A DNA stretch of 64,000 nucleotides from Methanobacteriales archaeon HGW-Methanobacteriales-1 (GCA_002839705.1 PGYO01000002.1:186001-250000); one strand, 5' to 3'; shown: positions 37,825 through 64,000, numbered from the stretch's first letter. Made by a program: numbers and translations. Notes: generated by a model not told the origin, from the letters alone.

Positions 37825-37876
37825 TACAATCTATTTTTGCGGTTTGTGTAAAACTGCTTATAAGATGTTAAAGGAG

Positions 37877-40771
37877 GTGATAAGTATTAAAAAACAAGGA
37901 ATTAAAAGACAAATAGTATTAATGGCTCTTGCAGTTCTTTTGACGCTGTGTATATGTGGAACAGTGTCTGCTGAAGACTTATCAAGTACAGGAGGTAATG
38001 ACAGTGATGCTCAATCAACTGTATCTGATAATCAAACAGTAATAGACCCTATAATTGGAGTTAAAGTTGGCTATGAATATTCTTCAGATAGTTCTATTAA
38101 TCCAGAGATAACTGTTAAAGATAACAATGGTACCAAGATAGCTTACAATAAAACTTATGATATGGCTTTTCAAGGTTATAAGTTGAGTTTCTTATATCCT
38201 GGTGCAGTTAATGGAACAAAATTCAATGTTACTGTTGCTGCTTCAGGTTATACTACTCAGACCAAGGAAGTTGGAGTTTTCTTTGATCCCAACAATTCTA
38301 GTGATCCTAATTTATATGGAAGTTCTACTTTCAATATGATGGCCACGGCCAATTATAAATTGGGGCGTGAAGTTACCAAAAAGGCAGATCAACTTTTGAA
38401 TTTCTCCAGTGCAGACAGTGTACTATGTATAACTACTGCAGGAGCTCCTTATAGAAATGGAACTACTACTGAAGACTGTTTAGAAGGAATTTTAAATGGA
38501 GCAAACGGATTAATCAGTTATGGACAAGGAAATTTATTAATGCTTAGAGAAACTAAAACCGATCCTGTCGATTTTGGTTTTATAGTCAAAAATGGAAGCA
38601 ATTTAACCTTAGCTTATTTCAAAAATGGTACACTGACACCAAATTATGTAGGGACCTTATCGGAAGACATGACTCTTGCTCAATGGAAAATTGTCAAAGA
38701 GAAATTAGGTTCTGATGCTTATCCTTATGCTAGTTTAGCAAATGCATGGGATATTGGACTCTCTTCTGATATACTCCGAGAAGCAGCATTCCATGGACAC
38801 GTTTGTTTAGGGACTATTAGTGGATATGCTATGATTGAAACTCTTCTTAAGTATTATCCGCCGGGACAACTCACCGCAGATAAGGAGGCAACAAGTTATC
38901 TGGTAGTAGGTACGCCTGGTGAATCAGAAGACGATGCATTTATAATCGGTATGGATAATACTCCTGGAAAACGTGCATATGTTGGATTCAATACTACTGA
39001 TAGTGCAAAAATCACGGGATTTATCCGCTGGAATTCTAAAACCAAAAAAGGAACTTTAGTGATAATGACCTTCGATGAAGATGCAGTGGTTAAAGAATTT
39101 AAAAATGAAACGGGGTTAGATGCTTATTCAAGTATATCTAATGAACTCAAATTCAATAAATGGTTAGTATACCGATTGCAGAACAATCCTGAATCTCTGG
39201 TATCCATTCTTTATGCATTTGATAACCTCACTGAAGAACAGGTTAACTACATAAATGGTGGAACTGGTTCTACCACAGAAGGTGATGCTCATGGTTTGGA
39301 TTTGAATTATATTCTTAACCAAACAAATTTAGTAACTGCAACTGCTAATAATCTGATTTTCACTAAAGGGAATTTAACTTCCCAGGAAATGAAAGATATA
39401 GGATTAAATGCTTCTAATAAAGCTAAAGAGCTTTTCTTGAGTGAAATGGGTATCAACCTTGAAATGGATGATTTTGACTTTTTAGTTTTAACTTCAGCAG
39501 GTTATGCTCGTCTCAATGGTCAGGCAACTGACATGATGTGGGATGGTATATACAGTGTCTTTGGATCTCGAGTTAGCAGAACAACATTACTACCAGTACA
39601 TAGTTCCATGTGGAGCAATTTATGGTTCACATTTATCTTGAGAAAAGATGGGGAAGGAATTGCTGGTTTGGATGGTTCATTTGGAAAATTCTCCTTCACC
39701 ATCGATGAAGATGACAGTTTCCTTTATGCTATCTACATGTACTATGATCCTGTCACAAACCAACTCGTAGTAGCCAATGATTCCAGTGGAAAAACAATAC
39801 ATGATATTGGACCTGCCTGTAATCAAACTTTAGCTTCAAAGTTGTTTGGTAGTTGGAATAGTATAGATACTATTGCAAATGCATGGGCTTATGATCCACC
39901 ATATGATATGTTAATGGCTTATTTATTCCACAACCATGTCTGCCCTGGTGTTTCACCATCATATCTCATAACAGATTACATATTTGAAAACTACCCTCTG
40001 GGAGAAAATGAGAAGTACATTTATGTAACCACTAATGATTACTGTGATGATGATGGTATCATGTATTTATTAGGTGTATCTCCTGGTGCTGGAACATACT
40101 ACAATCAGAGACTCAAGAATAACACAGCAACCACTGGAACTGGTAATAGAGAAGGTTACCTTATAGTATGGGATGATAAGACTCAAACTGGAAAAGTCAT
40201 TATCTTAACCTACAAAGGACCAAAATTCGCGAATGGTTCCAATGCACTTAAAGAGTATATAAATCTGTACCGGAAACAATCCTCAGGAAACGTAGTTTCT
40301 CAGGCCATATTAGGTTGTGAAGCTGAAAGAGTGATTACTAAAGCGGATTTAAGTACAATACTCTCAGGTGCACCTGAGTATGGTAATGCCATTAATTTCA
40401 TTCTAGGACTGCCTGCTAATAGAACTTTGGCAGATATTTTACCCAAGAAAGACGGTTCTAATGGTACTAATACCAATAATGGTAATCATTTGGTAGATAA
40501 TGGCGGATCTTCTAGTAGTGATTCCAGCAACCATGATGGATCTTCCAGTAGCAGTGGTTCTTCTGTGGGTACTAGTGTTCCAGTCAGTGCTGCAATGCAG
40601 ACCACTACTGAATCTGTGAACACAGGCAGTTCTCCTCAAAAGGCCTATGAAATGTCAAAAGCTGGTTCCACTAAAGGTGAATCTAATTCTAACTGGTATG
40701 TATATGTCATAGTTGGTTTCTTATCTTTAGGTGGATTAGTTGGATTTGGATTCATGCGTGCTAAAACTTAA
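37877..40771 (+). CDS. Secreted, membrane-anchored protein with two FmdE domains
   Basis: The roughly 964-residue protein has a signal peptide (KKQGIKRQIVLMALAVLLTL, cleavage near TVSA), a beta-rich N-terminal part, and an internal duplication: each half has a segment like DSVLCITTAGAPYRNGTTTE / DFLVLTSAGYARLNGQATD followed by an FmdE domain with FHGHVCLG (about residue 304) and FHNHVCPG (about residue 684). FmdE domains bind zinc or other metals through His and Cys. A Ser/Gly/His/Asp linker, the motif QKAYEMSK and one membrane helix finish it. GTG 37877 is the conventional start, but it overlaps the GGAGG site; ATT 37886, eight bases beyond, is better placed. It opens the metal cluster. Confidence 0.8.
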   Translation: MISIKKQGIKRQIVLMALAVLLTLCICGTVSAEDLSSTGGNDSDAQSTVSDNQTVIDPIIGVKVGYEYSSDSSINPEITVKDNNGTKIAYNKTYDMAFQGYKLSFLYPGAVNGTKFNVTVAASGYTTQTKEVGVFFDPNNSSDPNLYGSSTFNMMATANYKLGREVTKKADQLLNFSSADSVLCITTAGAPYRNGTTTEDCLEGILNGANGLISYGQGNLLMLRETKTDPVDFGFIVKNGSNLTLAYFKNGTLTPNYVGTLSEDMTLAQWKIVKEKLGSDAYPYASLANAWDIGLSSDILREAAFHGHVCLGTISGYAMIETLLKYYPPGQLTADKEATSYLVVGTPGESEDDAFIIGMDNTPGKRAYVGFNTTDSAKITGFIRWNSKTKKGTLVIMTFDEDAVVKEFKNETGLDAYSSISNELKFNKWLVYRLQNNPESLVSILYAFDNLTEEQVNYINGGTGSTTEGDAHGLDLNYILNQTNLVTATANNLIFTKGNLTSQEMKDIGLNASNKAKELFLSEMGINLEMDDFDFLVLTSAGYARLNGQATDMMWDGIYSVFGSRVSRTTLLPVHSSMWSNLWFTFILRKDGEGIAGLDGSFGKFSFTIDEDDSFLYAIYMYYDPVTNQLVVANDSSGKTIHDIGPACNQTLASKLFGSWNSIDTIANAWAYDPPYDMLMAYLFHNHVCPGVSPSYLITDYIFENYPLGENEKYIYVTTNDYCDDDGIMYLLGVSPGAGTYYNQRLKNNTATTGTGNREGYLIVWDDKTQTGKVIILTYKGPKFANGSNALKEYINLYRKQSSGNVVSQAILGCEAERVITKADLSTILSGAPEYGNAINFILGLPANRTLADILPKKDGSNGTNTNNGNHLVDNGGSSSSDSSNHDGSSSSSGSSVGTSVPVSAAMQTTTESVNTGSSPQKAYEMSKAGSTKGESNSNWYVYVIVGFLSLGGLVGFGFMRAKT

Positions 40772-40856
40772 TTTTCCCATTTTTTTCTTTTTTTATTAAA
40801 AGTGATAAAATTGAATTTATGACTCTTTTAGTATATTATTGAAAGGAGGTGTTTAT

Positions 40857-41345
40857 ATGATGAAAATAAAGATTAATTTTACTGTTTTAACTTGTTTTAT
40901 AATAATCTCAGTGATTTTTAGTGGCATTGCAATGGCACACCCAGGTCATGGGGACTATCCTGAAGAGGTCACAGATGATACTTCAGACCAAACAAATCAA
41001 AATACGGGTAGCACTACTACGACTAGGGATAATACTAAGAAAACTACTAAAACAACCACTACTAAAACTACTAAAACCAGCTCTGGAACTTCCACGGGTA
41101 TTGATAGTTCTTCTAATGATCAATCTACTCAAAGTGGAACTTCTGATTATCAAAATACAACAAATAATAATGATTCTGGATCTCAACCGCTAGAAGAAGT
41201 AACTAGTGCTAATCGAACTAATTCTACTTCTACAAATTCAAATAGTATACCTTGGAGTATTGCTACTTTGATAGGAGTATTTGCGGTGGGATTTGGAGGT
41301 ATTGCTTTAATATTTAAAATTGGACATTTTGGGCGCTTTTCTTAA
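40857..41345 (+). CDS. Small secreted His-containing protein, membrane anchored
   Basis: The 162-residue protein has a signal peptide (MMKIKINFTVLTCFIIISVI) with cleavage before HPGHGDYPEE; the mature N-terminus AHPGHGDYPEEVTDD offers two His and several acidic residues, as seen at metal-binding N-termini. A Thr/Lys/Ser/Asn-rich, probably glycosylated linker follows, and a C-terminal membrane helix (SIATLIGVFAVGFGGIALIF) ends in a basic tail. GGAGG lies seven bases before the ATG. It sits between the FmdE-domain gene and the CbiM-like gene. A decayed copy lies at 47454-47650. Confidence 0.65.
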   Translation: MMKIKINFTVLTCFIIISVIFSGIAMAHPGHGDYPEEVTDDTSDQTNQNTGSTTTTRDNTKKTTKTTTTKTTKTSSGTSTGIDSSSNDQSTQSGTSDYQNTTNNNDSGSQPLEEVTSANRTNSTSTNSNSIPWSIATLIGVFAVGFGGIALIFKIGHFGRFS

Positions 41346-41408: not shown

Positions 41409-42032
41409 TTGCATTTACCTGATGGACTTATACCTCTGTGGCAAGCAGTGATTTACTGGATTTTAGCCATTATACCTTTAGCATTTTATGCTTTTAAAAT
41501 ATCAAAAAGTGAAAAAAAAGATAAACTGATAATTAATACTGGAATATTTACCGCTGTGACTGTTGTAGTATCTTCTTTATCAATACCCTCTCCCTTTGGT
41601 ATCCCTATGCACTTTTTCCTGATACCTCTAGTAGTTATTTTACTGGGCCCATTAACTGGTATTGCTGTAGCTTTTTCATGCTTGCTTTTGCAGTTCCTAT
41701 TTTTAGGAATGGGTGGATTAACCACTCTGGGAGCTAATGTACTGGCCATGGGTGTGGTAATGAGTATTTCAACTTATTTATTCTACAAATTAACCTATGA
41801 TCTTGATGAAAGATTAAGCATTTTCGCGGGTACAATAATGGGTATAATAATGGCTACTGTTACTAATGCTATTATTCTAATATTGGCAGGAGTTGCTACT
41901 TTAGAAATGTTAATGGCCACTTTAATACCTTTTTATTTATTTATCGCAGTTATTGAAGGGTTAGCCAATGTTGCTATCATATCATTTATCTTCAAAATCA
42001 AACCTGAAATGTTAAAATTGGATAAAATTTAA
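41409..42032 (+). CDS. cbiM: CbiM-like Co/Ni energy-coupling permease component
   Basis: The 207-residue membrane protein begins MHLPDG, matching the CbiM/NikM signature in which His2 and the N-terminal amino group bind the metal. About six membrane helices follow, with [28 protein letters not shown] and [18 protein letters not shown] typical of the family. Start is TTG, eight bases after AAGGAGG; TTG is required so that His is residue 2. No cbiQ or cbiO (coupling subunit and ATPase) is found in the window, so it either acts with distant partners or alone. The CbiN-topology gene follows after 14 bases. Confidence 0.88.
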
Positions 42033-42046
42033 AAAGAGGATTAAAA

Positions 42047-42517
42047 ATGAAAATAAAAGTAATTTGCTTACTATTTGTTCTTTTAGGAACGATCTCTGCG
42101 GTCAGTGCCCATGGAGTAGATGTTACCAATCAATCAACCATTGTCATTGCCGATAATTCCACGGGATTACTGGCTAAAAAAGTGGTGGATGAAATGGGAG
42201 TCGAGGTTAAGGTTTACAAATTCAAATCGGCTGCTGATGTTACTCACCAGCTGGAACATGCTTTAACCAATCATAATAAAAGAATTCTGGCAGTGGCCTA
42301 TCAAGATACAGTCAATGATTTTTTGGCTAAAAATCCAACCGTTTCCAATAGAATATATGTTAGTTCTGCCGATGATATGGATATAAAAAATGGTTTAACT
42401 CTTTTAAGTTCGGATAATAACACTGGATTTTTAACACCATTCTTAGCTGGCCTTTTGATAGGTCTTATGGCGGGTTTAGGTCTAGGTGCCTTTTGGATGA
42501 AGAAGAAGTTAAGTTGA
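42047..42517 (+). CDS. CbiN-topology accessory membrane protein
   Basis: The 156-residue protein has an N-terminal hydrophobic segment (IKVICLLFVLLGTISAVSA), about 100 extracytoplasmic residues (STIVIADNSTGLLAKKVVDEMGV... a small alpha/beta domain) and a C-terminal Gly-rich helix (FLAGLLIGLMAGLGLGAFW) with a basic end. The two-helix topology and position directly after CbiM resemble CbiN/NikN, but the loop is larger and I see no real sequence match. It may present metal or ligand to the CbiM-like protein. GAGGATT lies before the ATG. Confidence 0.55.
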   Translation: MKIKVICLLFVLLGTISAVSAHGVDVTNQSTIVIADNSTGLLAKKVVDEMGVEVKVYKFKSAADVTHQLEHALTNHNKRILAVAYQDTVNDFLAKNPTVSNRIYVSSADDMDIKNGLTLLSSDNNTGFLTPFLAGLLIGLMAGLGLGAFWMKKKLS

Positions 42518-42730
42518 TTAAATTTTGAATTATTCTTCTATTTTTAATTTTTTTAAGGATTTTATTTTATAATTAATACTTTTACCTTTCTAATGCTGAT
42601 TTTATAGATATTACTTTTTAGGTGTGGGATTTATTTTTAAGGACATAATAGTCATTTAAATTTAGATTTTCTTTAAAAAGTATTATTCTTTTTATTATTT
42701 TATTACTAAATTTAAAATATATTAAAAAAT

Positions 42731-42762
42731 GTAATAATATTTAATTAATAACTATTATTATA
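42731..42762. promoter_or_regulatory. Putative operator upstream of first CobN-like gene
   Basis: GTAATAA (42731-42737) and TTATTAT (42755-42761) form an inverted repeat separated by 17 bases, the same arm and spacing as the site at 37794. It lies about 50-80 bases before the ATG at 42811, at the expected promoter. Confidence 0.5.
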
Positions 42763-42810: not shown

Positions 42811-45800
42811 ATGAAAAAAAACGTAATTTTACTAGTAACGACTTTATTTTTCATCATTGCAATGTGCGGAGCAGTATCCGCAACAGAGAATAACACTGGA
42901 GGTGATCAGAACAATTCTCAAATTGTTATTTCTGGTCAGGTTCTGGATTGTGTTACCAAAGAACCATTTTCAGGAGTAGATGTAACTGCTTCAAACAATG
43001 GAAACAACGTATCAAATACTAAAACAGACAACCAAGGCAAATACGAGCTCAAATTTTTAAGTAATTATACTCAATTCAATATAACTGCCAGCCATGATGG
43101 TCATAAATCATCTACAAAACTGGTAAATGTTGAATCAGATTCAAACAATCAAAATACGAATCTAAGTGGTAAAGCTAATTTTGAGCTGGGAAAACCGAAA
43201 TTATTGGTCATTGTTTACAATGTAAAACCGGGGTTTCTTGATGCTATCAAAGATTGTGATTTTTTAAACATCACTGTATACACATATACAGCCGGAAATC
43301 TCCCCCAATCAGTTAATGCAACTGATTATGATATGGTTTTTGTGGACTATTTGGCCTCAGGATTAAAAAATAATGACTACTGTAACCGTGTAGCAGCTTT
43401 GATGAATCAATCAGCAGCAAATGGAATTCCTACTGTAATGACTATAAATTATGCTATAGGTGTTCATAGTGCGGTAATTATTGCTAATGGGAATTCACAG
43501 TACCAGCCCATGAGAAATTACTGGTCTAACATAAATTACGCCAATGGAAAAGAACTCTTCAAATTCATTGGATTGAACTTTTTCAATTTAACTGTGGGAC
43601 AACCTCAGACACCAATAATCATAACCAGCGAAGCCATATACCATCCTGATGCAAATAGGTTGTTTGTGAGCCTGGATGATTATAAAACATGGTATCAGTT
43701 CAAGGCAGGAAAACCTACGGTAGGTATTGTATTTAGCCAGTCTGAGTATTCAGGTACTGATATGGCCGCAATGGATGCTTTAATCCACGCCTTTGAAAAT
43801 AAGGGTTATAATCTGATACCATATTTCTATCCGCATAGTGGAACCCCAAACATCAATAAGTTTCTACTACAGAATAATCAATCCGCAGTGGATTTAATAA
43901 TCCATTATAAAATGTTTGGTTGGACTTCCAACAGCTCGTACAATGATACTCAATTAGATCTCCAAAAACTAGATGTTCCTATAATAAAAGCATATAAATA
44001 TTTCGGGAACTATTCAAGTTGGCTAAATGGCACACAGGGAATGCAAGCAAGTACATTAGGTAGTACCATTGTTCCTTCGGAACTGGATGGGATGTTTGAT
44101 CCAATCATAATTGCCACGCAGGAAGAAATGCCGCAGTACATGCCATACACAATTACATTGTTCAAACCAATTGATCGCCAGATAAATTGGTTGGTGGATA
44201 GTGCCATAGCTTGGATAAATCTCAGGTACGAATCCAACAGTAATAAAAAAATAGCAATAATTTACTGGCACGGCACTGGTAAAGATCAGGGAGCAACAGC
44301 CGGACACCTGGATGTATACAACAGTATTAGCAGTATATTACAGGCTCTTAAAGACAGTGGCTACGACCTTGGATCCATTAACCTACCGACTAACAATACT
44401 TTAGTGGATTTAATCCGTAATCAAGGTTTGAATGTAGGATTATGGGCTCCAGGGGAGTTAGAAAAACTGGTAAATAATAATCCAGTGATCTTGGTTCCTG
44501 AATCTGAGTACTTGACCTGGTTTAATAAACTCAATGCCGCCAAAAGAAAGGAAGTCATTGATATGTGGGGTGAACCACCCGGTGATATCATGACTTACAC
44601 TAAAAATGGTGTAAAATATCTGGTTCTTCCAGTTATCCAATATGATAATGTAATTTTAGCACCTGAACCTTCACGTGGTTATAATCAGGATATTGATTCC
44701 ATGTATCATGCAGGCAGTGTGCCACCTAATCACCAGTATCTGGCATTTTACTTCTGGTTAAAGAACGACTTTAAGGCAGATGCAATTATTGACATGGGAA
44801 GGCACGGTACTGTGGCATGGTTACCTGGAAAAACTGGGCCTGGTCTTGATATAGATAACTGCTGGGCAGCTATTGTAAGTCAAGACATTCCAGTGATATA
44901 TCCATTTACTGTAGAAGGTAGTGAAGGTATGTTACCAAAAAGACGTCAAGGAGCACTAATGATAAGTCATTTAACTCCGTCATTAACTGTTTCAAGACTC
45001 TACGGTAATTTGACCATACTCAACGACAAAATTTCAGAATACAATTCCCCTAATATTGATGCCGAAACCAAAGCTAAACTAAAGACAAGCATTTTACAAT
45101 TAGTAAAGGACTTAAAAATCAATGAAGATATTGGAGTGAACTTAACCACAATCAACGACACCAACTTTGACCAGTTCCTGGGAAAAGTGCACGCGTATTT
45201 GGACGATATTGAATCAGAATTCATACCCTATGGATTGCATGTATTTGGACAGCCACCTCAGGGAGATGAGCTTACCAATCTAGTTCAATCTTTGCTTGGG
45301 TTTGGTTTCAGAGATTATATGAAAGCCAATAACATATCTGATGCACAGGTTCAGTTAATACTTAAAAAGTTATTAATTGAGGGATTGAATGTAAATCAAG
45401 CTCAAATTTCAGTTCTTGGTTCAACCTCTCTCCAAATGACAACGTATCTAAACCAGGCTATAGTACACGCTGCAAATATCAATAAATGTACCAATGAGAT
45501 GACAGGTCTTCTCCGGGCATTAAATGGTAGATATATCCCTCCAGGTATTTCAGGTGATCCAATTAATAACCCGAATGTACTGCCAACTGGAACTAACTTC
45601 TATTCATTTGATCCTAGGAAAGTTCCAACTGCCGAAGCTACAGCTATTGGTAATAAGCTCGCTCAGGACTTAATTGACGACTACTTGAATAAAACTGGTA
45701 ACTACCCTACCAAGATATCATTTATGCTCTGGGCCATTCATACCCAACAAGATATGGGTGTAATGGAAGCAGCGATATTTTATCTGCTGGGTGTAGAAAG

Positions 45801-47229
45801 AGTACCTGATGCATCAAATCCCAGTATTGTGACTGATGTTAGATTAATCCCTAACTTAGATAGGCCCAGGATTGATGTTGTGGTGAGTACTACTGCTTTA
45901 TACTTGACCATGTTCCGATGCAGATTGGATCTGATTGATAAAGCAGTTAGATTAGCCGCAGCAGCCAATGATACTAAGCCAAACTATGTGAAACAGAATT
46001 CAGAAAATACCTACCAATACTTAAAGTCAAAGGGATACTCTGATGATGTGGCCAGAAAACTATCTATGGCACGAATATTCTCCCAAGAAGAGGGTAATCA
46101 TAAAAACGCCATGCAGGCAGCACTACTTGCAGGGGGTTCCTGGGAAAATGAGAGCCAATTAGCTGATACTTACATCAGCACCTTTGGAAATCTATTCCAG
46201 GGATCAGAGGTTAACTCTATTTTATTTGAAGATTTGTATAAACAAAATTTAAATGGAACAGAAGCTGTGGTATTCCGAAGAACATACAATGCAAATAGCT
46301 TATTTAGTGATAGCGATTACATGGGATACTTTGGAGGATTGGGTCTTACCATAAGAGAAATTTCAGGTAAGGAACCATTGATGTACATCATGAACACAGA
46401 AAATACCAACAATCCTAAACTGGAAACACTGGCAGAATCTCTTTGGAGGGATGTAAGGTCTACTTATATTAATCCAAAATATATTGGGAAGATGATGCAG
46501 TCTGGTGCTCCAGGTGCAGCTCAGTTCTCAGAATTCATAAAAAACATGGCTGCTTGGAGAGTAACTTCACATGATTCTGTGAATTCCAACATGTTCCAGG
46601 AAGCATATGATGTGTACTTCAAAGACAAGTATAATCTCAACATGAAAAAATGGTTTGATAGTGCTAATCCATACTCACATCAAGCTATGGCTGCTGTTTT
46701 ATTGGATTCCATTAGAAAAGGTTACTGGAAGGCTAGTGAGTCTGATATGAAATTTTTAGCTAATACTATGGCTCAAAATGCTATTGATAATGGTATGGCT
46801 TGTTGTGACTGTACTTGTGGTAATTTAGCTATGATGCAATGGGCTTCCCAATATATTAACCCAAATATGCTGGCCAAGTTTAAAAATGCTGTTTATCAGT
46901 CAACTTTGGCTGCAGGGTTTGCTCCGGAACCTGTTAAACCATCTGAAGGCGGTAATCCTTCTGAAGATGGTTCTGATGGTAGTTCTGATACTGGTTCTAG
47001 TGGTGGATCTTCTACTAGCTCGGGTTCCAGTTCTGGTTCTTCTCAGGATAAGTTTGTCAGTGAAGAATCTCAGGCTACGCCTGGTGAACAGTCCGCTCAA
47101 AAGTCATACGAAGTTTCTAAAGCAAGTAATTCCTCTTCTACATCATCAAACATGCCATTTTATGCTATAATTGGTGTTCTTTGTTTGATTGGTCTTGCTG
47201 GATTTGGATACTTCCGTGGAAGAAACTAA
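42811..47229 (+). CDS. Secreted CobN-like chelatase large-subunit protein 1
   Basis: The 1472-residue protein has a signal peptide (KKNVILLVTTLFFIIAMCGA, cleavage near VSA), a carboxypeptidase-regulatory-like beta domain (about residues 35-110, ISGQVLDCVTKEPFSGVDV), then a full CobN/ChlH-type region (about 125-1370). The chelatase motif reads MGRHGTVAWLPGK near residue 664, with Ala where the paralogues have Glu. AKRR-like PKRRQGALMISHLTP follows. A Cys-rich GMACCDCTCGNL sits near residue 1329. A Ser/Gly/Glu linker, QKSYEVSK and one membrane helix close it. Cytoplasmic CobN inserts Co with ATPase partners; an exported form cannot use ATP directly. ATG follows AAAGGAGGTGAAAAG. Confidence 0.8.
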   Translation: MKKNVILLVTTLFFIIAMCGAVSATENNTGGDQNNSQIVISGQVLDCVTKEPFSGVDVTASNNGNNVSNTKTDNQGKYELKFLSNYTQFNITASHDGHKSSTKLVNVESDSNNQNTNLSGKANFELGKPKLLVIVYNVKPGFLDAIKDCDFLNITVYTYTAGNLPQSVNATDYDMVFVDYLASGLKNNDYCNRVAALMNQSAANGIPTVMTINYAIGVHSAVIIANGNSQYQPMRNYWSNINYANGKELFKFIGLNFFNLTVGQPQTPIIITSEAIYHPDANRLFVSLDDYKTWYQFKAGKPTVGIVFSQSEYSGTDMAAMDALIHAFENKGYNLIPYFYPHSGTPNINKFLLQNNQSAVDLIIHYKMFGWTSNSSYNDTQLDLQKLDVPIIKAYKYFGNYSSWLNGTQGMQASTLGSTIVPSELDGMFDPIIIATQEEMPQYMPYTITLFKPIDRQINWLVDSAIAWINLRYESNSNKKIAIIYWHGTGKDQGATAGHLDVYNSISSILQALKDSGYDLGSINLPTNNTLVDLIRNQGLNVGLWAPGELEKLVNNNPVILVPESEYLTWFNKLNAAKRKEVIDMWGEPPGDIMTYTKNGVKYLVLPVIQYDNVILAPEPSRGYNQDIDSMYHAGSVPPNHQYLAFYFWLKNDFKADAIIDMGRHGTVAWLPGKTGPGLDIDNCWAAIVSQDIPVIYPFTVEGSEGMLPKRRQGALMISHLTPSLTVSRLYGNLTILNDKISEYNSPNIDAETKAKLKTSILQLVKDLKINEDIGVNLTTINDTNFDQFLGKVHAYLDDIESEFIPYGLHVFGQPPQGDELTNLVQSLLGFGFRDYMKANNISDAQVQLILKKLLIEGLNVNQAQISVLGSTSLQMTTYLNQAIVHAANINKCTNEMTGLLRALNGRYIPPGISGDPINNPNVLPTGTNFYSFDPRKVPTAEATAIGNKLAQDLIDDYLNKTGNYPTKISFMLWAIHTQQDMGVMEAAIFYLLGVERVPDASNPSIVTDVRLIPNLDRPRIDVVVSTTALYLTMFRCRLDLIDKAVRLAAAANDTKPNYVKQNSENTYQYLKSKGYSDDVARKLSMARIFSQEEGNHKNAMQAALLAGGSWENESQLADTYISTFGNLFQGSEVNSILFEDLYKQNLNGTEAVVFRRTYNANSLFSDSDYMGYFGGLGLTIREISGKEPLMYIMNTENTNNPKLETLAESLWRDVRSTYINPKYIGKMMQSGAPGAAQFSEFIKNMAAWRVTSHDSVNSNMFQEAYDVYFKDKYNLNMKKWFDSANPYSHQAMAAVLLDSIRKGYWKASESDMKFLANTMAQNAIDNGMACCDCTCGNLAMMQWASQYINPNMLAKFKNAVYQSTLAAGFAPEPVKPSEGGNPSEDGSDGSSDTGSSGGSSTSSGSSSGSSQDKFVSEESQATPGEQSAQKSYEVSKASNSSSTSSNMPFYAIIGVLCLIGLAGFGYFRGRN

Positions 47230-47352
47230 AAAAACTATAATCTACCCTTTTTTATTTTTTTTATTTTTTTAAAGTAATTCGATAGAAATTCATATTTAAT
47301 TATCAGCTAATTTTCAGGGATTTATTACAATACCTTTTATTTTCTAAAAAAA

Positions 47353-47383
47353 TTAATAATAAAAATTTAATAGTAAGTATTAT
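47353..47383. promoter_or_regulatory. Putative operator upstream of the decayed gene
   Basis: TTAATAA (47353-47359) and GTATTAT (47377-47383) hold TAATAA-N18-TATTA, the core and spacing of the other cluster sites. It lies about 75-105 bases before the pseudogene at 47454. Confidence 0.4.
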
Positions 47384-47453
47384 ATAATTACTTTTTAATT
47401 ATATATTATTTGAATCAAAATTTTAAAGGTTTATATTATTGTTTAGGAGGTGA

Positions 47454-47650: not shown

Positions 47651-47749
47651 TTATTTTCTTATTTTAAAGTTTTTCAAGTAGTGCCTTTTTTTAAATAATA
47701 AACCTTAATTTTATGAAATATTGATTTTTTTATATTAAAAATAGTAATC

Positions 47750-54207: not shown

Positions 54208-54346
54208 CAGCTTCCTATAATTTTTTTTATTTTTTTATTTTTAGAATTAATTCTAGTTTTATTGTTTATTCACATTTTTTATTATTCAAAATATTATTTA
54301 ACAGTACTTGTATTTTTTTACTTTTTGTATTAGGGGTGTAAGAAGT

Positions 54347-55405: not shown

Positions 55406-58400
55406 TTATTTCTTTCCGGTCTTAAACTTAACTGTTAAGCTATGGGCTAATTTATTGCCGGCATTGTCCATTACAGCGGATGCTGGAATATACAATGCAT
55501 AATTGGTGTAGCTGTATCGTTTAAGGGCCATTTTTATTTTTAGCGTGTTTCCAGATATCCATTTACTGATTTTCACTTTTTTACCATTTTTAAGGTTTTT
55601 AATGTAAACCTTGGACCAGTTAATACTGTTTTTAATGGATTCAGAGAATTTCACGTAAAGTGTGGAAGTTCTAGAAACTTTAGTGGCCTTATTTTTTGGA
55701 TAGGTTAGGGTAGCTTTTGGTGCGATTTTGTCTATGGTGTATGTTTCGGTGTATACTGTGGAGGGGTTTCCTGCATTATCAATTGCTAAAAACTTTAAGG
55801 TAGCAGATGATGCGATGGTAATTGGTCCAACGTATTTAGTGCTGGCATTGGTTGGTATAGCGCCATTTAGGGTGTAGTAGATACTACCTGCTTCACTTAT
55901 TGATAGAGTAACCACTTTATTGGCGTTGTATAATCCACCTTTGATATTTGCACTGGCGGTTGGTATTGTTTTGTCTATAGTGTATGTTTCAGTGTATACC
56001 GTGGAGGGGTTTCCTGCTTCGTCTATGGCTATGAATTTTAGGGTGGTTGTGTTGTTGATGTTTATTGTTCCGGTGTATAGTGTGCTGGTATTGGTTGGTG
56101 TAGTGCCATTTTGGGTGTAGTAGATACTGCCTGCTTCGTTCATGGTTAAGTTAACATTCTGAGCAGCATTGTATAATCCACCTTTGATATCAGCACTAAC
56201 CGTAGGGGCTGTACCATCAGTTACTGTAATTGTACTAGTGGTGGTGTCATTACCTCCATTACCAGTAACAGTTAATTTTACGGTATATGTACCAACATCG
56301 TTAAATAAATGAATTGGATTTTGCTCAGTACTATCCACAGTACCATCATTATTGAAATCCCAGGCCCAAGCAGTTATATTTCCACTGGAATTGTCATGGA
56401 ACTGTACAGATAATGGAGCATGCCCACTGGTTACATTACTGGTGAAGTTAGCTTCAGGCAAGTAGGAAACAACTAATATGTTGCTTAACAGGTACATGTT
56501 GTCCCCGGTGGTTCCATTGAGGAAACTTTGTATGGCTGCTTTATTATCTCCATTAATCAGGGAACTTGATACATCATAGGATGAGAAACCAATTTGTGGT
56601 CCACCTAAAAAGTTATTCCAGAATCCGGTGTATTCGTTTCCATTAAAGAAGTATTTACTCTTACCGGGATCACCTGCACTGGCTAAGATGACTATAGACT
56701 TAGCATTGTTTAGTTCAGCTGTGGTTAAATTGTTAAAGTTGGCATAGGCCGTTGCTTCGGTACTGTTTACTGAATAAGTATTATCTGCTTTAATGCTGTC
56801 GAATTCGTCGTTGATAAATATTTTTTTGAAAGTTGTAGCCGGATCAGAATAGACCACAATCATATAAGTACCAAAAAGAGCGTAATTATGGGCTGTTTCT
56901 GGTGTAACAGTTAGATTGTTACCGGAAGTGTTGAATAATGCAGTTACATCATAGACATCAGTTCCATAAGGGAAATTATATTCTCCAAATCCTTTCTGGT
57001 CTTTGTAACTTGCTATTTTATTAACCAAAGCATTGTTAAATGTCATGGTGTATGCTGGATCTATAGCTTCCTTGTTATATGACCATGGTTGATATAACAA
57101 AGCTTTTACTACTGTTGCTCCTGTAGGAATTACCAGATTGGCGGCTGTCCAGGTAGCATTAAATGCATCCCAGTTAGCACCATGATAAACACTGTTACCT
57201 ATGGAGTAGATTAAGTCGTATCTACCTTCAAAGCTGGTGGTGGTGTTAAAATCGCTGCCATTGGTGTAACTTTTACCTTTGTAACCATTGTAGTAAACGA
57301 AAGGATCAACAGATAATTGATTGTTAGTTTCATCATATTCTGTTATATCATTAGTACTATCTACTAAAACACCAATGTTCACAGTGCCATTTGCTGTTGG
57401 TGTGTATCCAGTGAAGGTTACAGTGGTTGAAGATCCATTGGCCAGACTGTTAATTAGTTGAGTTTCAGTGTAAGTACCAATATTTAAAGTAACATTAAAT
57501 GGTCCGGAAGTCGCGTTTCCATTGTTGTTAATGGTAACTCGGATGTTGTTTGGTTCATTAGCAAACAAGTTTGCTCCAGCACCTGGGTTGTACTCCACAT
57601 TAGATGCATTTAAATCTGGTTTAGTAGCAGAGTATTTAACTTTTAGAGTAACTATTGGAATTTTTAAAGATCCACTTACTCGAGAATAGGTTAAAATACT
57701 GGAATTTCCAGCCGCAATATCACTGGTTACATTCCAAGTGTTTATCTTGTAATTGTATCCCGTCGCTGGAGCTCCTCCAGTCTTATTTACACCATTAAAA
57801 GTATAATTACCATCTGATGATGAGGTATGAATCATTTTCACCTCAGCACTATCCCATCCACTACTTAGTGATGTGGTATCAAATGTAGTGTTTCTGCTGG
57901 TGGCTGAGAACCATTGATGTCCATCATTTACCCAGTACTCAATCCGGTCATTGTCTCCATCGTCATAGGCCACTATGAGAGCTATGAATTTGATACGACC
58001 ATCCATATTAGATGCCCCTGGAGATGTTTCTACTTTGGTATTTACGGTACCATTTTGGATATAGTCTTTCACGTCATAGCTCAGTAAATAATCTGAGTAA
58101 ACTCGACTTATATGGTCATCCTGCCAGTAAATTGTACCATTACTTCCAGAAGCAGTATTTAAGGTTATTGTATTCTCCAGTATGGTTTCGTAGTTTCCAT
58201 CATTGTTCCCATCGAATGTTACATTGACATTACAGGTTCGGTTATCTGTACCACCCACATATACCATAGTGTATAGTTTGGCGTATTTTACATTGGTGTA
58301 GTTGGATGCGAAGTTAAATTTTGCTTCCTGACTTACTCCTGTGTTTTGTGTTTGATTACTCCATGCAGTGGGTTCCTGAGCATCAAAGTACAGATCACCA

Positions 58401-58537
58401 GAAACATTGCCACTGGCATTGGTGGTTACTGGTAATTCTGCTGCTGATGCAGCACCACATAATAAAATAATACATGACATTACCAGCAGGATAAATAAAC
58501 TTTTTTTCTTTATAGTATTTGGTGAAACGTTATTCAC
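55406..58537 (-). CDS. Surface protein with DUF3344, CARDB, PKD and Ig-like domains
   Basis: The roughly 1043-residue secreted protein reads: signal peptide (KKKSLFILLVMSCIILLCGA, cleavage near ASA), DUF3344-type domain (about 40-305), CARDB (ASNVEYNPGAGANLFANEPN, about 310-415), a second DUF3344-like domain (about 420-720), PKD (FTSNVTSGHAPLSVQFHDNS, about 725-800), two chitobiase-C-like repeats (GLYNAAQNV / GLYNANKVV) and an SbsA-like Ig domain at the end. These are adhesion or wall-associated modules. GTG at 58537 overlaps the AGGAGG site and no ATG lies at normal distance, as in other genes of the cluster. It is divergent from the third CobN-like gene, which shares its first domains. Confidence 0.8.
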   Translation of the reverse strand: MNNVSPNTIKKKSLFILLVMSCIILLCGAASAAELPVTTNASGNVSGDLYFDAQEPTAWSNQTQNTGVSQEAKFNFASNYTNVKYAKLYTMVYVGGTDNRTCNVNVTFDGNNDGNYETILENTITLNTASGSNGTIYWQDDHISRVYSDYLLSYDVKDYIQNGTVNTKVETSPGASNMDGRIKFIALIVAYDDGDNDRIEYWVNDGHQWFSATSRNTTFDTTSLSSGWDSAEVKMIHTSSSDGNYTFNGVNKTGGAPATGYNYKINTWNVTSDIAAGNSSILTYSRVSGSLKIPIVTLKVKYSATKPDLNASNVEYNPGAGANLFANEPNNIRVTINNNGNATSGPFNVTLNIGTYTETQLINSLANGSSTTVTFTGYTPTANGTVNIGVLVDSTNDITEYDETNNQLSVDPFVYYNGYKGKSYTNGSDFNTTTSFEGRYDLIYSIGNSVYHGANWDAFNATWTAANLVIPTGATVVKALLYQPWSYNKEAIDPAYTMTFNNALVNKIASYKDQKGFGEYNFPYGTDVYDVTALFNTSGNNLTVTPETAHNYALFGTYMIVVYSDPATTFKKIFINDEFDSIKADNTYSVNSTEATAYANFNNLTTAELNNAKSIVILASAGDPGKSKYFFNGNEYTGFWNNFLGGPQIGFSSYDVSSSLINGDNKAAIQSFLNGTTGDNMYLLSNILVVSYLPEANFTSNVTSGHAPLSVQFHDNSSGNITAWAWDFNNDGTVDSTEQNPIHLFNDVGTYTVKLTVTGNGGNDTTTSTITVTDGTAPTVSADIKGGLYNAAQNVNLTMNEAGSIYYTQNGTTPTNTSTLYTGTININNTTTLKFIAIDEAGNPSTVYTETYTIDKTIPTASANIKGGLYNANKVVTLSISEAGSIYYTLNGAIPTNASTKYVGPITIASSATLKFLAIDNAGNPSTVYTETYTIDKIAPKATLTYPKNKATKVSRTSTLYVKFSESIKNSINWSKVYIKNLKNGKKVKISKWISGNTLKIKMALKRYSYTNYALYIPASAVMDNAGNKLAHSLTVKFKTGKK
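55720..56206 (-). repeat. Two tandem 80-residue repeats in the surface-protein gene
   Basis: Two copies of about 240 bases each encode chitobiase-C-like domains with the same frame: SADIKGGLYNAAQNV ... GNPSTVYTETYTIDKT and SANIKGGLYNANKVV ... GNPSTVYTETYTIDKI. High similarity at DNA level (for example around GTGGAGGGGTTTCCTGC) indicates a recent internal duplication. Boundaries are approximate. Confidence 0.6.
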
Positions 58538-59041
58538 CTCCTAATTACTTTAATTTAACTTTAATTAGTCTAAGCATTTTTTACAATTTCAAATCTAAAA
58601 AATACATTACAATATAAAAATTAATTCCACCCCTTTTTGGAATATCCCCTCCAATTAATTATGAACTTTATTCATGAACTTCTGATATATATTACTATTT
58701 ATTACTTTTTTTTTATTACTAAATTCCTTGTTTTCAGGAGTTTTGTAATAATATTTCTTTTATATTATTAGAGTTAACTAAATAAAAATGATTATTATTG
58801 ATTATAAATGCTTTATTTTTTGTAATATTACGTATTTTCAGAAAATAATTATAATTATTACTTTATAAATAAAATAAGTTCCTATTTTCTTTTATTTTAT
58901 TATTTTAAAACTAGCTCATTCTTAATAACATATTATGATATTTATTACAAAATCATTAGAATATTAGAAATAAGTAATAACAAAAAGTAAATACATGCTA
59001 ATGCTTTAATTATAATTAATAATGATTTTAGAGGGGATTTT
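58538..59041. other. Divergent promoter region rich in TAATAA/TATTAC words
   Basis: The 504-base spacer between two divergent surface-protein genes has no gene. It holds GTAATAA (58745-58751) with TTATTA (58765-58770) at a shorter spacing than the other cluster sites, the palindrome GTAATATTAC (58823-58832), and an everted pair TTATTAC (58942-58948) / GTAATAA (58974-58980). GAGGGG at 59031-59036 is the ribosome site of the third CobN-like gene. Confidence 0.4.
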
Positions 59042-62000
59042 ATTAAAAAAAGAATTATAATTATGATTTTTATGTTATTAATTTTATTTTCCTGTGGAAC
59101 TGCATTTGCAGATAATAGTACTGGGGGAATAAAACTTAACACCACTCAAAATGGTACTGTAAGTGGAGGTTTATATACTGACACTTATTATGGTCTGAAT
59201 GAAACATCACAAAATGCATATGCCAACAACAGTGTTAGTAAAAATTTTAAAGACTTACCTGCCAATTCCACAGTGGCCTGGGCCAGATTGAGTGTAGTTG
59301 TGTATTGTGGTAGTCAACAGGATGACCGTAGTGGTTATGCCAACATTACATTTAATGGTCAGCAGATTGGATACGAATACCTTAAAAGTAATTATGTTTT
59401 TGCCAGTTCAGGGGGAAGTCCGGTCTGGTTAAATGACCATGTGAATCGTATCACCAGTGATTACTTGATGTATTATGATGTTACCAGCCTGGTAGGACAG
59501 CAGAACAATGCAATGGTACAAACATTACAGGAAACAATTAATTTTGATGGTAGGATAAAACTGATTAATCTAGTGGTGGCCTACAATGATGGTGATTCTG
59601 ATAAGATAATGTATTGGGTCAATTATGGCCATGATACCTGTACCGATACTATTTATCTGGGGAAAACCTTCTTTAATGGCACCATTCCTGGGGATATTTT
59701 GGATGCTCAGTTAGATGTGATCCACTTATCCAGTACTGATGGACTTTATACTTTTAATGGAAACCCTATCTCTTCAGGGAGTCCTCAGGGGGATTATTCT
59801 GGATCGAATACTTGGAATGTGACTGGTATTTCAAATAACGGGCCATTAAATAATTTAACCTATGATAATATGGGAAGTTATTATAAAATCGTTTTAGCAA
59901 TGTTAAGTGTTAAATACGAGCCACCAGTAATTAGTTTAGCTGATTTGAAAGTTCAAGACCTGGAAATACCTCCATCCATAATTAATCTGACCTCATCAAT
60001 TAAGGCCAGTATAATTAACCTGGGAAATAACAATTCCAGTAATTTCAAAGCTAAACTATTTGATAATAATGTAGAAATAGGAAGCCAAATCATATCCAGT
60101 TTAAGTGCTGGAGATAGTATGGATTTAACTTTTAACTGGACGCCAAGCACTTTAGGAATTCATAATCTAAAACTGGTTTTGGATACAGATAATACGGTTA
60201 ATGAGTCTAATGAATCCAACAATGAATTCAACTCTTCAGTTATTGTGGAAAGACAGAGGCCTGATTTAACGGTTACTGGATTGAACATTCCTTCTGAAAT
60301 ATTTGTTCTAAAACCATACAATATCACAGCCAGTATAAAAAATGTAGGATTGAATATAAGCTCTTCATTTACAGTTAAGATAATGGACAATAATAAAGAA
60401 ATATCCTCTCAAACCATATCTGGACTGAACTCTGGACAGTCACAAACTATTGTATTAAGCTGGATACCTGAAAGTAGTGGTTCCCATAATATTAAAATAT
60501 TAATTGATCCTTTAAATGCTATAAATGAAAGTAATGAAAACAATAATGAATTATCCCAATCTTTACTGGTTAAAGAAGGTAATAAAACCACTATTTTTCT
60601 TATAAGTGACACTTCAGGAACTAATATTCTTAATAGTGCTGCTAAAGAAATACTTGAACAATACTCTGGAAGATTCATTATTCAAGTTAGAAACAATCAA
60701 CAGATAGTCAACATGACTGATGGTGAATTGATTACTTATCTTAATGCCACCGATATTTTTATCGGGGAATGGTTGAGTACCGATGTTAGTTCCAAGCTAC
60801 TCTCCATATTAAATGCACATCCGGAACTATCCAATAAATCAGTTTTCCTCATACTAGAACCACCAGTATCTAACCTTCCAGAATCAGTTTCATTAATGAA
60901 ATATTCAACTATTAATGGAGTTAAATTACTCTCTAATTTCACCACAGCACAATTAAATGCCTATTATGCCAATACTACTCGAGGAACTGATTATAGTAGT
61001 GTGCTAAATTACACCTTATCTTCAGGATTCCCGGCATTATACAACAAGGCCATATTGTATAAAGATTTAAATGACAAGGATAGTCTTAAAAATCAGATAC
61101 TTTGGGCCTTAAATTTAATGAATTTGCCTTTAAATTATACTGAACCAACTTTTTCTGCTGATAAGCAAGATTATGGTATTTATCGTTACAAATGGTATGT
61201 TAAACTGGATCCTGTCACTGGAAAATATGTAATGGATCTGGAAAGTTATATGAATGATTACTTAGTAAGTGGTCGGCCTACGGTGGGTCTCATAGAAAGT
61301 ACCATGTATGTAAATTCCCAGCAACTGGAACCCTATTACAAGATTATAGATGCCTTAGAAGCCCGGGGAATGAATGTTATTCCTATCATGGCCTATGGTG
61401 GAACTACAGAACAGCTAAAAGTAATGATGGATGCATTTACCAATGCTACTAATATAACCAGCTTCCTAAATAACCCTTCCAGTTATCAGATAATGGTTGA
61501 TTCAATTATTGAAATGCCCGCTTATGGTTTGGGTGGGGATAGTTTTACCAGTACCACTGCATTTTTTGAGGCATTAAATGTAACTATTATCCGAGCTATT
61601 CACTCTGATTCGGTTTCTAATGAAGAATGGGAACTAAGTTCAACTGGTTTACCAAGCACCAGTGGGGATAAATGGTGGCACGTAGCCATATCCGAAGCTC
61701 AGGGAATAATACTAGCTACTTTTGTAGGTGGACAATCCACCACTATTGACAATGCCACCGGAGCAGCCCTGGTAGGTTATGTTCCTCAACTGGAAAATAT
61801 TGGGAATATGGCCGATAAAATCAAAGGATGGGTGGATTTAAAATACACTAACAATGCAGACAAGCTTTTGGCCTTGATATACTACAATTATCCTCCGGGA
61901 AAGGATAATATTGGGTCCAGTTATCTTAACACAGTAGAAAGCCTTTACAATCTTCTTAATATCCTTAAAAGTCAAGGTTACAAAGTAGATAACATTCCGG

Positions 62001-64000
62001 CCAATGAATCAGAACTCAGATCCCTCATGATTGATCTGGGAATAAATGTGGCCAATTGGGCTCCTGGTGTGCTGCAGAATATGACCAACAACCCCAATAT
62101 AATTCTTTACCCGGTGGCCAGTTACCAGCAATGGTTCTCTAAACTGGATAATATGACTCAACTACAGGTAATTGAAGGACCAGTGGCTTATATTGGAGAG
62201 TTATGTAAAAAAGCTGTGAATCTGGATTACACTGACGGGATGGCAGAAAAAATAGAATCGTGGTACTCGGAAATGGTGGCATTACTACCAGCTAATAGAA
62301 CTTCTGTGGCCAAACCAGTTCTGGACAATATATTAACTTCTCTTAAGAATTATGTATCTACCAAAAATGTTACTTATTATAATCAATTCTTAACTTATAA
62401 AGCACAGTTTTTTGCCCTTAATGTAAGTGGAATGAATGGATGGGGTCAAATTCCTGGAAATGTTATGGTGGTTACTAAAAATGGCACTCAATACTTTGTA
62501 ATTCCTGGATTAAAATTCGGAAATATTTTTATTGGACCAGAACCACAAAGGGGATGGGAAGCCGATTCAGATAAATTGTATCATAACAGTGTAGTGGCCC
62601 CTCCTCATCAGTACCTTGCTTACTTTGCCTATCTGCAGGAACAGGGAACTGATGCAATGATATACATGGGAAGACATGCCACCCACGAATGGCTGCCAGG
62701 TAAAGAAGTAATTCTCTCACCAGATGACTTACCAAGCATTGTCACCGGTAGTGTTCCTCAGATATATTATTATATTTCTGATGGTCTGGCTGAAGGTATC
62801 CAGGCCAAAAGAAGAGGTAATGCAGTTATTATTAGCCATCTAACTCCACCTATGACTTTCACAGCATTATATGGTGATTTAGGAAATCTTTCGGTTTTAG
62901 TTGATGATTATGATGGCGCCAATGCCACTCAAAAACCAGTAATATTGGCCCAAATAGTAAAAATATTAAATAATAACACCTATTACTTGGGAAATACCAC
63001 TGTTCTCAGTGGGGATGCTCTGGTAGAAGCAGTAAATAATTATCTGGTAAGTATTCAAAGTACCCTGTATCCTTATGGTCTGCATGCTATTGGAGGAAAC
63101 TGGACTGACGAAGAGGTGGCCCTACTGGTAACTTCCATGTTATCCGTCGATTTTGAAGTAAATAATGGGTCACAATCAACCTCCCTGCATGATGAAATTG
63201 CTAAAATATTGAAGGGAAAAACCTATGATCAACTGGGAGTTATTGATAAACAAACAGTCCAAAACAAATGTGTAGCTATTATTAAAGCTTTAATTTACTG
63301 GGATGTGGATACGGTAGCTAATATTCTTACCATCAGCCCCAGCAATAACTTTAAAGAAGTTCTAAGTGTGGGAAAAGAATACATAGGTCTAATAAATCAG
63401 AGTATACAAAATGAAGTAAACAGTCTTTTAACCGCATTAAATGGTGGTTATGTAGCACCTGGAGCGGGTGGGGATCCAATTTCCTACCCATCTATCTTAC
63501 CAACAGGTACTAACTTCTTTGATGATCAGGGATCTGAAATACCCACCAAAGAGGCTTATGCTTATGCCAAAACATTGGCCCTACTTGCTCTGGTAGATAT
63601 AAATGATGATACTGAAAAAATAGCTGTGGGTATCTGGTGTGTGGAAACAGCCCGGGATGATGGTGCCCTGGTGGCCATGGTCCTTTATCTATTAGGGATG
63701 GAGCCGCAATGGTCTGATTCACCTAGCGCAGGAGTCGATGGCCAAAAACTAAAAGAAATGCCTAAATACGTCGAATTATCTGATCTGGTGAGACCTGCTG
63801 GATGGGAAAAGAAAAGAATAGATGTGGTTATTGTAACTAGTGGTCTTTTCAGGGACTTATACAGTCGTCAGGCTGGTCTTCTAGATAATGCATTTAGAGT
63901 GGCCTTGGCTAGGTCTTATTATACCATCATTAATAATGCCACTCTCACTTCAAGATATGGAACTACCATTAAAACGTCGCTAGATAAAATAATGTCTGGT
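59042..64000 (+). CDS. Secreted CobN-like chelatase large-subunit protein 3 (runs off window)
   Basis: The frame is open from 59042 to the window end (1653 codons, no stop). It encodes a signal peptide (KKRIIIMIFMLLILFSCGTA, cleavage near AFA), a DUF3344-type domain (about residues 35-300) like that of the divergent neighbour, two CARDB domains (ADLKVQDLEIPPSI; PDLTVTGLNIPSEI), then a CobN/ChlH-type region from about 720. The chelatase motif is MGRHATHEWLPGKE near residue 1210, then EGIQAKRRGNAVIISHLTPP. The C-terminus is outside the window. The best-placed start is ATT at 59042, five bases after GAGGGG; the first ATG (59063) would remove the positive end of the signal peptide. Confidence 0.78.
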   Translation, partial: MKKRIIIMIFMLLILFSCGTAFADNSTGGIKLNTTQNGTVSGGLYTDTYYGLNETSQNAYANNSVSKNFKDLPANSTVAWARLSVVVYCGSQQDDRSGYANITFNGQQIGYEYLKSNYVFASSGGSPVWLNDHVNRITSDYLMYYDVTSLVGQQNNAMVQTLQETINFDGRIKLINLVVAYNDGDSDKIMYWVNYGHDTCTDTIYLGKTFFNGTIPGDILDAQLDVIHLSSTDGLYTFNGNPISSGSPQGDYSGSNTWNVTGISNNGPLNNLTYDNMGSYYKIVLAMLSVKYEPPVISLADLKVQDLEIPPSIINLTSSIKASIINLGNNNSSNFKAKLFDNNVEIGSQIISSLSAGDSMDLTFNWTPSTLGIHNLKLVLDTDNTVNESNESNNEFNSSVIVERQRPDLTVTGLNIPSEIFVLKPYNITASIKNVGLNISSSFTVKIMDNNKEISSQTISGLNSGQSQTIVLSWIPESSGSHNIKILIDPLNAINESNENNNELSQSLLVKEGNKTTIFLISDTSGTNILNSAAKEILEQYSGRFIIQVRNNQQIVNMTDGELITYLNATDIFIGEWLSTDVSSKLLSILNAHPELSNKSVFLILEPPVSNLPESVSLMKYSTINGVKLLSNFTTAQLNAYYANTTRGTDYSSVLNYTLSSGFPALYNKAILYKDLNDKDSLKNQILWALNLMNLPLNYTEPTFSADKQDYGIYRYKWYVKLDPVTGKYVMDLESYMNDYLVSGRPTVGLIESTMYVNSQQLEPYYKIIDALEARGMNVIPIMAYGGTTEQLKVMMDAFTNATNITSFLNNPSSYQIMVDSIIEMPAYGLGGDSFTSTTAFFEALNVTIIRAIHSDSVSNEEWELSSTGLPSTSGDKWWHVAISEAQGIILATFVGGQSTTIDNATGAALVGYVPQLENIGNMADKIKGWVDLKYTNNADKLLALIYYNYPPGKDNIGSSYLNTVESLYNLLNILKSQGYKVDNIPANESELRSLMIDLGINVANWAPGVLQNMTNNPNIILYPVASYQQWFSKLDNMTQLQVIEGPVAYIGELCKKAVNLDYTDGMAEKIESWYSEMVALLPANRTSVAKPVLDNILTSLKNYVSTKNVTYYNQFLTYKAQFFALNVSGMNGWGQIPGNVMVVTKNGTQYFVIPGLKFGNIFIGPEPQRGWEADSDKLYHNSVVAPPHQYLAYFAYLQEQGTDAMIYMGRHATHEWLPGKEVILSPDDLPSIVTGSVPQIYYYISDGLAEGIQAKRRGNAVIISHLTPPMTFTALYGDLGNLSVLVDDYDGANATQKPVILAQIVKILNNNTYYLGNTTVLSGDALVEAVNNYLVSIQSTLYPYGLHAIGGNWTDEEVALLVTSMLSVDFEVNNGSQSTSLHDEIAKILKGKTYDQLGVIDKQTVQNKCVAIIKALIYWDVDTVANILTISPSNNFKEVLSVGKEYIGLINQSIQNEVNSLLTALNGGYVAPGAGGDPISYPSILPTGTNFFDDQGSEIPTKEAYAYAKTLALLALVDINDDTEKIAVGIWCVETARDDGALVAMVLYLLGMEPQWSDSPSAGVDGQKLKEMPKYVELSDLVRPAGWEKKRIDVVIVTSGLFRDLYSRQAGLLDNAFRVALARSYYTIINNATLTSRYGTTIKTSLDKIMSG

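Follow-up and report, generated by a model that had tools for sequence, protein, structure and literature searches.

Closest described systems and the archaeal locus

The large subunits of the CobNST and ChlHDI chelatases are cytoplasmic and work with AAA+ partners. Exported CobN-like proteins are also known, as BtuS and HmuS. As cited in PMC6460266, BtuS is a proposed third CobN type whose members are predicted to be exported and anchored; the B. fragilis BtuS concerns heme iron. HmuS, a heme de-chelatase, belongs to the heme-iron system of Bacteroidota and is encoded in hmuYRSTUV of Porphyromonas and Prevotella, the products of which are annotated as HmuY, TonB receptor, CobN, hypothetical protein, ExbB, and DUF2149 and which is induced by iron depletion (PMC10434189). 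The HmuS paper states that complete hmu operons are missing from archaea and considers the roles of the archaeal homologues unclear (PMC12583661).

Here, we analyze a window of 64,000 nucleotides from Methanobacteriales archaeon HGW-Methanobacteriales-1, in which exported CobN-like proteins are encoded with a DUF2162 permease, ExbB, and DUF2149. The locus is thus not fully new, as BtuS and HmuS are precedents for the export and HmuV had already been annotated as DUF2149. We read it as a system for nickel acquisition coupled to the proton motive force (PMF), in which nickel complexes are captured and de-chelated outside the cytoplasmic membrane, and assign this reading a probability of about 0.65. 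Nickel as the metal is well supported; we infer the de-chelation chemistry and the ligand. The evidence consists of sequence and the proteomics of others, and function is predicted.

Nickel decides which enzymes methanogens can use, and its acquisition at nanomolar levels is the question addressed. The cluster links the "Transporter" and "CobN1" of a 2025 nickel limitation study with the archaeal homologues of the 2025 HmuS paper and gives the nicotianamine synthase MtNAS a likely physiological setting. It offers deletable genes in the tractable Methanothermobacter and bears on rumen and gut methanogens, in which the system is widespread.

Composition and extent of the cluster

A preliminary description of this DNA had reported an exported chelatase-like cluster. 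Pfam searches and extension into the genome confirmed the observation and showed the cluster to be bigger. All of the families named (three CobN proteins, a two-FmdE protein, a CbiM-like permease, DUF2162, ExbB, and DUF2149) were recovered by Pfam where they had been placed, while two genes had been missed: that for a thermonicotianamine synthase (NAS; 36379 to 37176, plus strand; PF03059, E value of 3e-94 to MtNAS 3FPE) and that for its divergent partner, a GNAT acetyltransferase (35606 to 36145, minus strand; Pfam Acetyltransf_1). These two genes form the 5' start of the cluster, upstream of the interval first described, and the 3' end lies 1.3 kb past the window.

The remaining genes are on the plus strand. 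FmdE2 (37844 to 40771) is exported and C-terminally anchored and has two FmdE domains (PF02663 twice, 3e-23). It is followed by a small exported protein with the predicted mature N terminus HPGHG (40839 to 41345; conserved A|HPGHG), a lone CbiM/NikM-like permease (41409 to 42032; PF01891, CbiM 3e-42), and a protein in the position of CbiN (42047 to 42517) that has a signal peptide, a Rossmann-like domain, and a C-terminal transmembrane (TM) helix, as judged by conserved residues and an AlphaFold model. Next are exported CobN a (1472 aa; 42811 to 47229; CobN-Mg_chel, 7.5e-296) and CobN b (1438 aa; 47940 to 52256; CobN-Mg_chel, E value of 0). A triad follows, comprising the DUF2162 permease in the HmuT position (52425 to 53132; PF09930, 5e-67), an ExbB/TolQ-like proton channel in the HmuU position (53229 to 53900; PF01618 MotA_ExbB, 7e-11), and ExbD-like DUF2149, which shares both position and annotation with HmuV (53866 to 54207; PF09919, 2e-23). 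Exported CobN c (2079 aa; 59063 to 64000, continuing to 65302) combines PF02514 CobN-Mg_chel (8.8e-166) with DUF3344 and CARDB. A TPR protein (54308 to 55363) and a DUF3344 protein (55406 to 58537) also lie inside the interval, which does not imply membership in the cluster. Rfam at gathering thresholds gave no match anywhere in the window.

Exported CobN proteins and the AAA+ question

Across the whole genome, the three CobN genes of the cluster are the only ones, and all are of the exported type. CobN c, completed from the genome, ends at G000:C2:251302 (window position 65302) with the same C-terminal anchor as the others. By the sole criterion of hydrophobicity, a signal peptide and an anchor are present in most full-length homologues of the exported type. 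Most of these homologues also bear a C-x4-C-x-N signature near the C-terminal end (CCDC[ST]CGN or CCHHTC.N), the Cys pair and Asn of which are likewise present in HmuS. In contrast, the cytoplasmic CobN of one relative (G097) lacks signal, anchor, and signature and is encoded next to an ECF transporter and an AAA+ chelatase subunit of 599 aa. An AAA+ gene also lies next to a cytoplasmic-type CobN in a second relative (G102). No AAA+ gene was found within the cluster or at the exported CobN loci of the relatives inspected. The preliminary description had proposed an extracytoplasmic, AAA+-free, metal-related system and had named AAA+ pairing in relatives as evidence that would count against it; the proposal holds, and at the loci inspected only cytoplasmic CobN was found in such pairs. 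Although CobN a to c share the large-subunit fold and the CobN-type Asp motif with CobNST and ChlHDI, they are not functionally members of those systems because they are exported and have no AAA+ partner.

These properties bear on a suggestion made in 2011, that the CobN-like proteins MTBMA_c10550-10570 and MTH673 "could be nickel chelatases" (PMC3087415), which here would mean insertion of nickel during F430 biosynthesis. The CobN/ChlH fold and nickel regulation would fit such a role, but the proteins are exported to a side of the membrane that has no ATP and no AAA+ partner. The nickel chelatase of F430 biosynthesis is already known and is CfbA. We regard insertion as very improbable.

A lone ChlI/ChlD-like AAA+-VWA protein of 727 aa is encoded elsewhere in the genome (G000:C1:468842-471025), with no CobN nearby. 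Exported CobN proteins and FmdE2 proteins with HxHxC have an (A/S)YE(V/L/I) motif 15 to 25 residues before the C-terminal TM helix (seen in 37844 to 40771, 42811 to 52256, L007:6163-12402, and homologues), which is possibly a docking or sorting signal. The motif was rejected as a mark of every triad partner; short FmdE2-like proteins beside the triad do not have it. At loci such as L105:9915-14231, L137, and L185, very large exported proteins encoded downstream of the triad match CobN c in part and are not CobN.

Comparison with HmuS and hmuSTUV

The order CobN-DUF2162-ExbB-DUF2149 is that of the published hmuSTUV products, with DUF2162 equated to HmuT by position only. The archaeal cluster thus resembles hmuYRSTUV in having an exported, membrane-bound CobN, a membrane protein, ExbB, and DUF2149 in order, and also in the induction by metal starvation published for a relative. 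It differs in that none of its genes encodes the outer membrane capture proteins HmuR or HmuY, in its host, which has no outer membrane, and in its additions, namely, several CobN proteins, FmdE2, CbiM, NAS, and upstream elements that suggest nickel. The partner genes also differ from those of BtuS.

The best PDB match of CobN a was HmuS (9D26, 455 bits, versus 347 bits for CobN), while that of CobN b was CobN (7C6O, 502 bits, versus 420 bits for HmuS). In a tree of a partial region, HmuS grouped with CobN a and CobN c with moderate support (87/89). The cavity residue His538 of HmuS, within HFG(T/A)HG, is kept in all three proteins (MGRHGT in CobN a, HLGTHGT in CobN b, and MGRHATHE in CobN c), whereas His1209 and Glu1212 of LSLDHxxEFMGG are replaced by Asp and Gly/Gln, respectively, in CobN a and CobN b. 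Of the head and neck heme ligands, His254 is kept in CobN a and Met79 is replaced by Leu; CobN b gave no HmuS alignment across this region. Because His1209 is replaced by Asp, CobN a and CobN b do not qualify as HmuS in the strict sense.

The same replacements bear on whether the cluster salvages heme or another tetrapyrrole in the manner of HmuS, for iron or for the ring rather than for nickel. Such a role would explain the hmuSTUV-like operon order, the closeness of CobN a to HmuS in the PDB, and the grouping of CobN a and CobN c with HmuS, and BtuS proteins of M. barkeri are upregulated on Fe(II)/Cys and FeS2 (PMC10846266). We nevertheless consider it unlikely given the loss of His1209 and Met79 and the lack of HmuR and HmuY, and nickel is indicated both by the upstream elements and by the published data on Methanothermobacter marburgensis described below.

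The retained His538 is also relevant to a role in the cell envelope, in adhesion, or in nickel sensing, with a noncatalytic CobN fold and nickel regulation that is incidental. The adhesin-like DUF3344 and CARDB fused to CobN c and the surface-like proteins around some triads would suit this explanation. As all three CobN proteins retain the active-site His, the partner proteins have conserved His of a metal-binding type, and metal transporters belong to the cluster unit, we judge it improbable.

Partner proteins

Homologues of FmdE2 of this type keep the motifs HGHxC and H[ND]HxC, and sequence comparison of FmdE2 with the PDB gave no match. Among the 17 listed proteins encoded next to CbiM/FmdE2, all but one (16) have the A|HPGHG sequence. 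The lone CbiM has the NikM/CbiM metal ligands, an N-terminal MH and a second His, with H2 and H68 invariant among 33 homologues. Two other CbiM proteins are encoded in the genome, in complete CbiMNQ-type operons located elsewhere, each CbiQ with its own CbiM, and neither CbiQ nor CbiO is encoded alongside the lone CbiM in the cluster. The cluster therefore resembles the Nik/CbiMNQO transporters in its metal-binding CbiM and in an upstream element common to it and nikMNQO but differs from them in lacking Q and O and in the unrelated fold of the protein in the N position.

That last protein had been described as having the topology of CbiN. Its likeness to CbiN is limited to position: no Pfam or NCBIfam family matched it, and its AlphaFold model, a generic Rossmann-like domain plus one TM helix, gave no PDB match at an E value of 0.001. 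H22, H67, E70, and H71 are nevertheless invariant in 18 sequences. DUF2162 has an invariant CPCC (15 sequences). A CcdA/NicO-like fold was considered for it and rejected, as the AlphaFold model (pLDDT of 75) gave no PDB match at an E value of 0.001. The lack of a fold match for both DUF2162 and the CbiN-position protein counts against the nickel reading.

In ExbB and ExbD, channel Thr residues and a TM Asp serve the proton path. Both Thr residues (T142 and T172) are invariant in 100 homologues of the cluster ExbB, and Asp27 of DUF2149, located in the TM sequence VDAMLVLA as in ExbD, is kept in 99% of 97 homologues. The proton gradient module of the preliminary description is thus present with its proton path residues conserved.

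Gene order in relatives

The order CobN-DUF2162-ExbB-DUF2149 recurs in many Methanobacteriaceae, across genera, and a scan of genome contigs with DUF2162 returned almost only this family. Around the lone CbiM, an FmdE2-HPGHG-CbiM-CbiN-position unit is seen repeatedly, and several genomes have the triad attached to it, at three loci without any CobN. Because the triad is found either with CobN or with the FmdE2 unit in the absence of CobN, the two seem to serve one energized core as alternative or joint partners outside the membrane. In a second taxonomic family of the order (f3/g18; eight genomes, all with NAS), the order where read is GNAT (divergent)-NAS-FmdE2-CobN-DUF2162-ExbB-DUF2149, and the outer flanking genes, where seen, are those of the window. 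In 7/8 of these genomes, NAS and DUF2162 share a strand, with NAS 9.2 to 9.4 kb upstream; the remaining one (G113) is broken by contig ends.

A second DUF2162-ExbB-DUF2149 of the window's genome (G000:C9:101865-108440) is followed by genes for a SAM methyltransferase, a Peripla_BP_2 protein, a FecCD-type permease, an ATPase, and a cytoplasmic FmdE and is thus linked to a chelate-type ABC importer. A third ExbB-DUF2149 pair (G000:C4:206967-207943) has large surface-like proteins containing PKD-like repeats as neighbors. We note that one contig titled Actinomycetota bears an archaeal CobN-DUF2162-ExbB-DUF2149 and is probably a mis-binned methanogen contig.

An upstream DNA element shared with nickel transporters

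Upstream of the system genes, we observed an element with the core GTAATA, the full form of which is the palindrome AAAGTAWTACTTT. In the window, core pairs resembling operators precede NAS (36185 to 36222, 32 bp apart), FmdE2 (37763 to 37799, 31 bp apart), and CobN a (42701 to 42736, 30 bp apart), and nine cores, including pairs 30 to 31 bp apart, precede CobN c (58690 to 58979); core density is 8.3/kb upstream of system genes versus 1.9/kb. Overall, 235 cores were counted in 29.1 kb upstream of system genes (8.06/kb) and 85 cores in 64.9 kb upstream of other genes (1.31/kb), a sixfold difference in density. Pairs of cores peak at a spacing of 31 to 32 bp in the system and nik regions and are nearly absent in controls.

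As the element was found post hoc by inspection, its tests are the contrast between nik and cbi genes, which is a fresh test, and the genes downstream of it genome-wide. With transporter types assigned by us from NikM-like or CbiM-like sequence, the 500 bp upstream of nikM-type genes contained 10.6 cores/kb (11 genomes), versus 0.75/kb for cobalt-type cbiM (8 genomes). The exact palindrome occurs 9 to 17 times per genome in five relatives, versus 0 to 2 times for a reversed control. Among the genes that follow it are mcrB, frhA, hmd, hmdC, nikM, NAS/GNAT, CbiM, FmdE2, and the gene for a NikA/CntA-like protein; those named are nickel enzymes, a replacement enzyme for nickel shortage, and nickel transport genes. 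Some other genes behind the palindrome have no obvious link to nickel. Heavy-metal P-type ATPase genes at three loci also have it upstream and are candidates for a nickel exporter or a sensor-linked pump. For the exact palindrome, the window's own genome shows no enrichment (1 versus 4 for the control) and gives no support for it as an operator, so regulation there is deduced only from the core and its spacing.

Because the element is common to nikMNQO and not to cbiMNQO, the metal is most likely nickel. The preliminary description had named both nickel and cobalt; the former is thus favored and the latter is not supported. Uptake of cobalt or corrinoids would accord with the CobN homology and the CbiM-like permease, but cobalt-type cbiMNQO has almost no such element upstream, the genome already has a complete cobalt-type CbiMNQO, and the protein after the lone CbiM is not CbiN. 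We hold this alternative to be very improbable. More broadly, the insertion and corrinoid readings of the preliminary description are disfavored, and its proposal that corrinoids or F430 are carried into the cell is not supported.

Published responses to nickel limitation

In a 2025 proteome of M. marburgensis under nickel limitation, "Transporter, MTBMA_c10530," "possible metal-chelating proteins," "CobN1," and NikR1 were upregulated, as were Hmd and HcgG, while Mcr and Frh were downregulated (PMC12350162). We infer, with locus numbers among the grounds, that MTBMA_c10530 is the ExbB of this cluster. The preliminary description had accepted that no response to metal or corrinoid supply would refute it; as to metal, the increases in MTBMA_c10530 and "CobN1" contradict such an absence for the family (PMC12350162).

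Two aspects of these data weigh against the nickel reading. Both CobN and NAS appear to be broken in M. marburgensis, and the transporter is still induced. In G107 (chromosome of 1,634,695 bp), CobN is in three pieces. Breakage affects NAS and CobN together in both G107 and G114 and leaves FmdE2 and DUF2162 intact, and this joint breakage counts in favor of the nickel reading. The second point against it is that Mcr and Frh fall at low nickel and Hmd rises; therefore, either one site serves both responses or several regulators are involved.

Proposed mechanism

In the proposed nickel acquisition cycle, CobN and FmdE2 would bind nickel in organic complexes outside the membrane. One candidate ligand is nickel-tetrapyrrole debris such as F430; another is a nicotianamine-type metallophore that the cell itself would make through NAS and that GNAT perhaps acetylates. 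By analogy, the handling of a tetrapyrrole by each characterized CobN relative favors F430 debris, whereas the operon position of NAS favors the metallophore; we do not rank the two. CobN may free Ni2+ by means of the conserved cavity His, chemically as HmuS frees iron from heme, with ExbB-DUF2149 coupling the PMF to this cycle through conformational change, or to DUF2162. The nickel would then pass over the His-bearing HPGHG and CbiN-position proteins (H22, H67, and H71 in the latter) to CbiM, in genomes that have it in the unit, or else to the general NikMNQO.

NAS and a possible metallophore

NAS keeps the catalytic residues E81 and Y107 of MtNAS, for which roles have been described (PMC10491745), and is orthologous to it. 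In the f3 genomes, the operon begins with NAS, and GNAT is beside or near NAS in several genera as well as in the second family. NAS thus belongs to the cluster system. It is not obligatory, since two congeners (G098 and G099) have lost NAS and keep CobN; that NAS always accompanies exported CobN was rejected, and its loss in these genomes is a further point against the nickel reading.

Staphylopine Cnt and MtNAS systems offer a parallel in the orthology of NAS, in the ABC, MATE, or MFS genes near NAS in other genomes, and in the NikA/CntA-like protein gene that carries the upstream element. Unlike in Cnt, no opine dehydrogenase was seen and secretion is only putative here, while Cnt has no capture by exported FmdE or CobN. 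That a nicotianamine-type nickel metallophore is made and secreted, with nickel recovered at the surface by PMF-driven CobN/FmdE de-chelatases on an HmuSTUV-like core, is a tentative and somewhat doubtful extension of the nickel acquisition reading. Elsewhere, the neighbors of NAS are GNAT, MATE or MFS proteins, and peptide/nickel-type ABC ATPases. In one genome (G049), NAS-GNAT is divergent from nikMNQO, which is followed by a hydrogenase maturation protease, and the shared intergenic region contains eight half-sites of the element.
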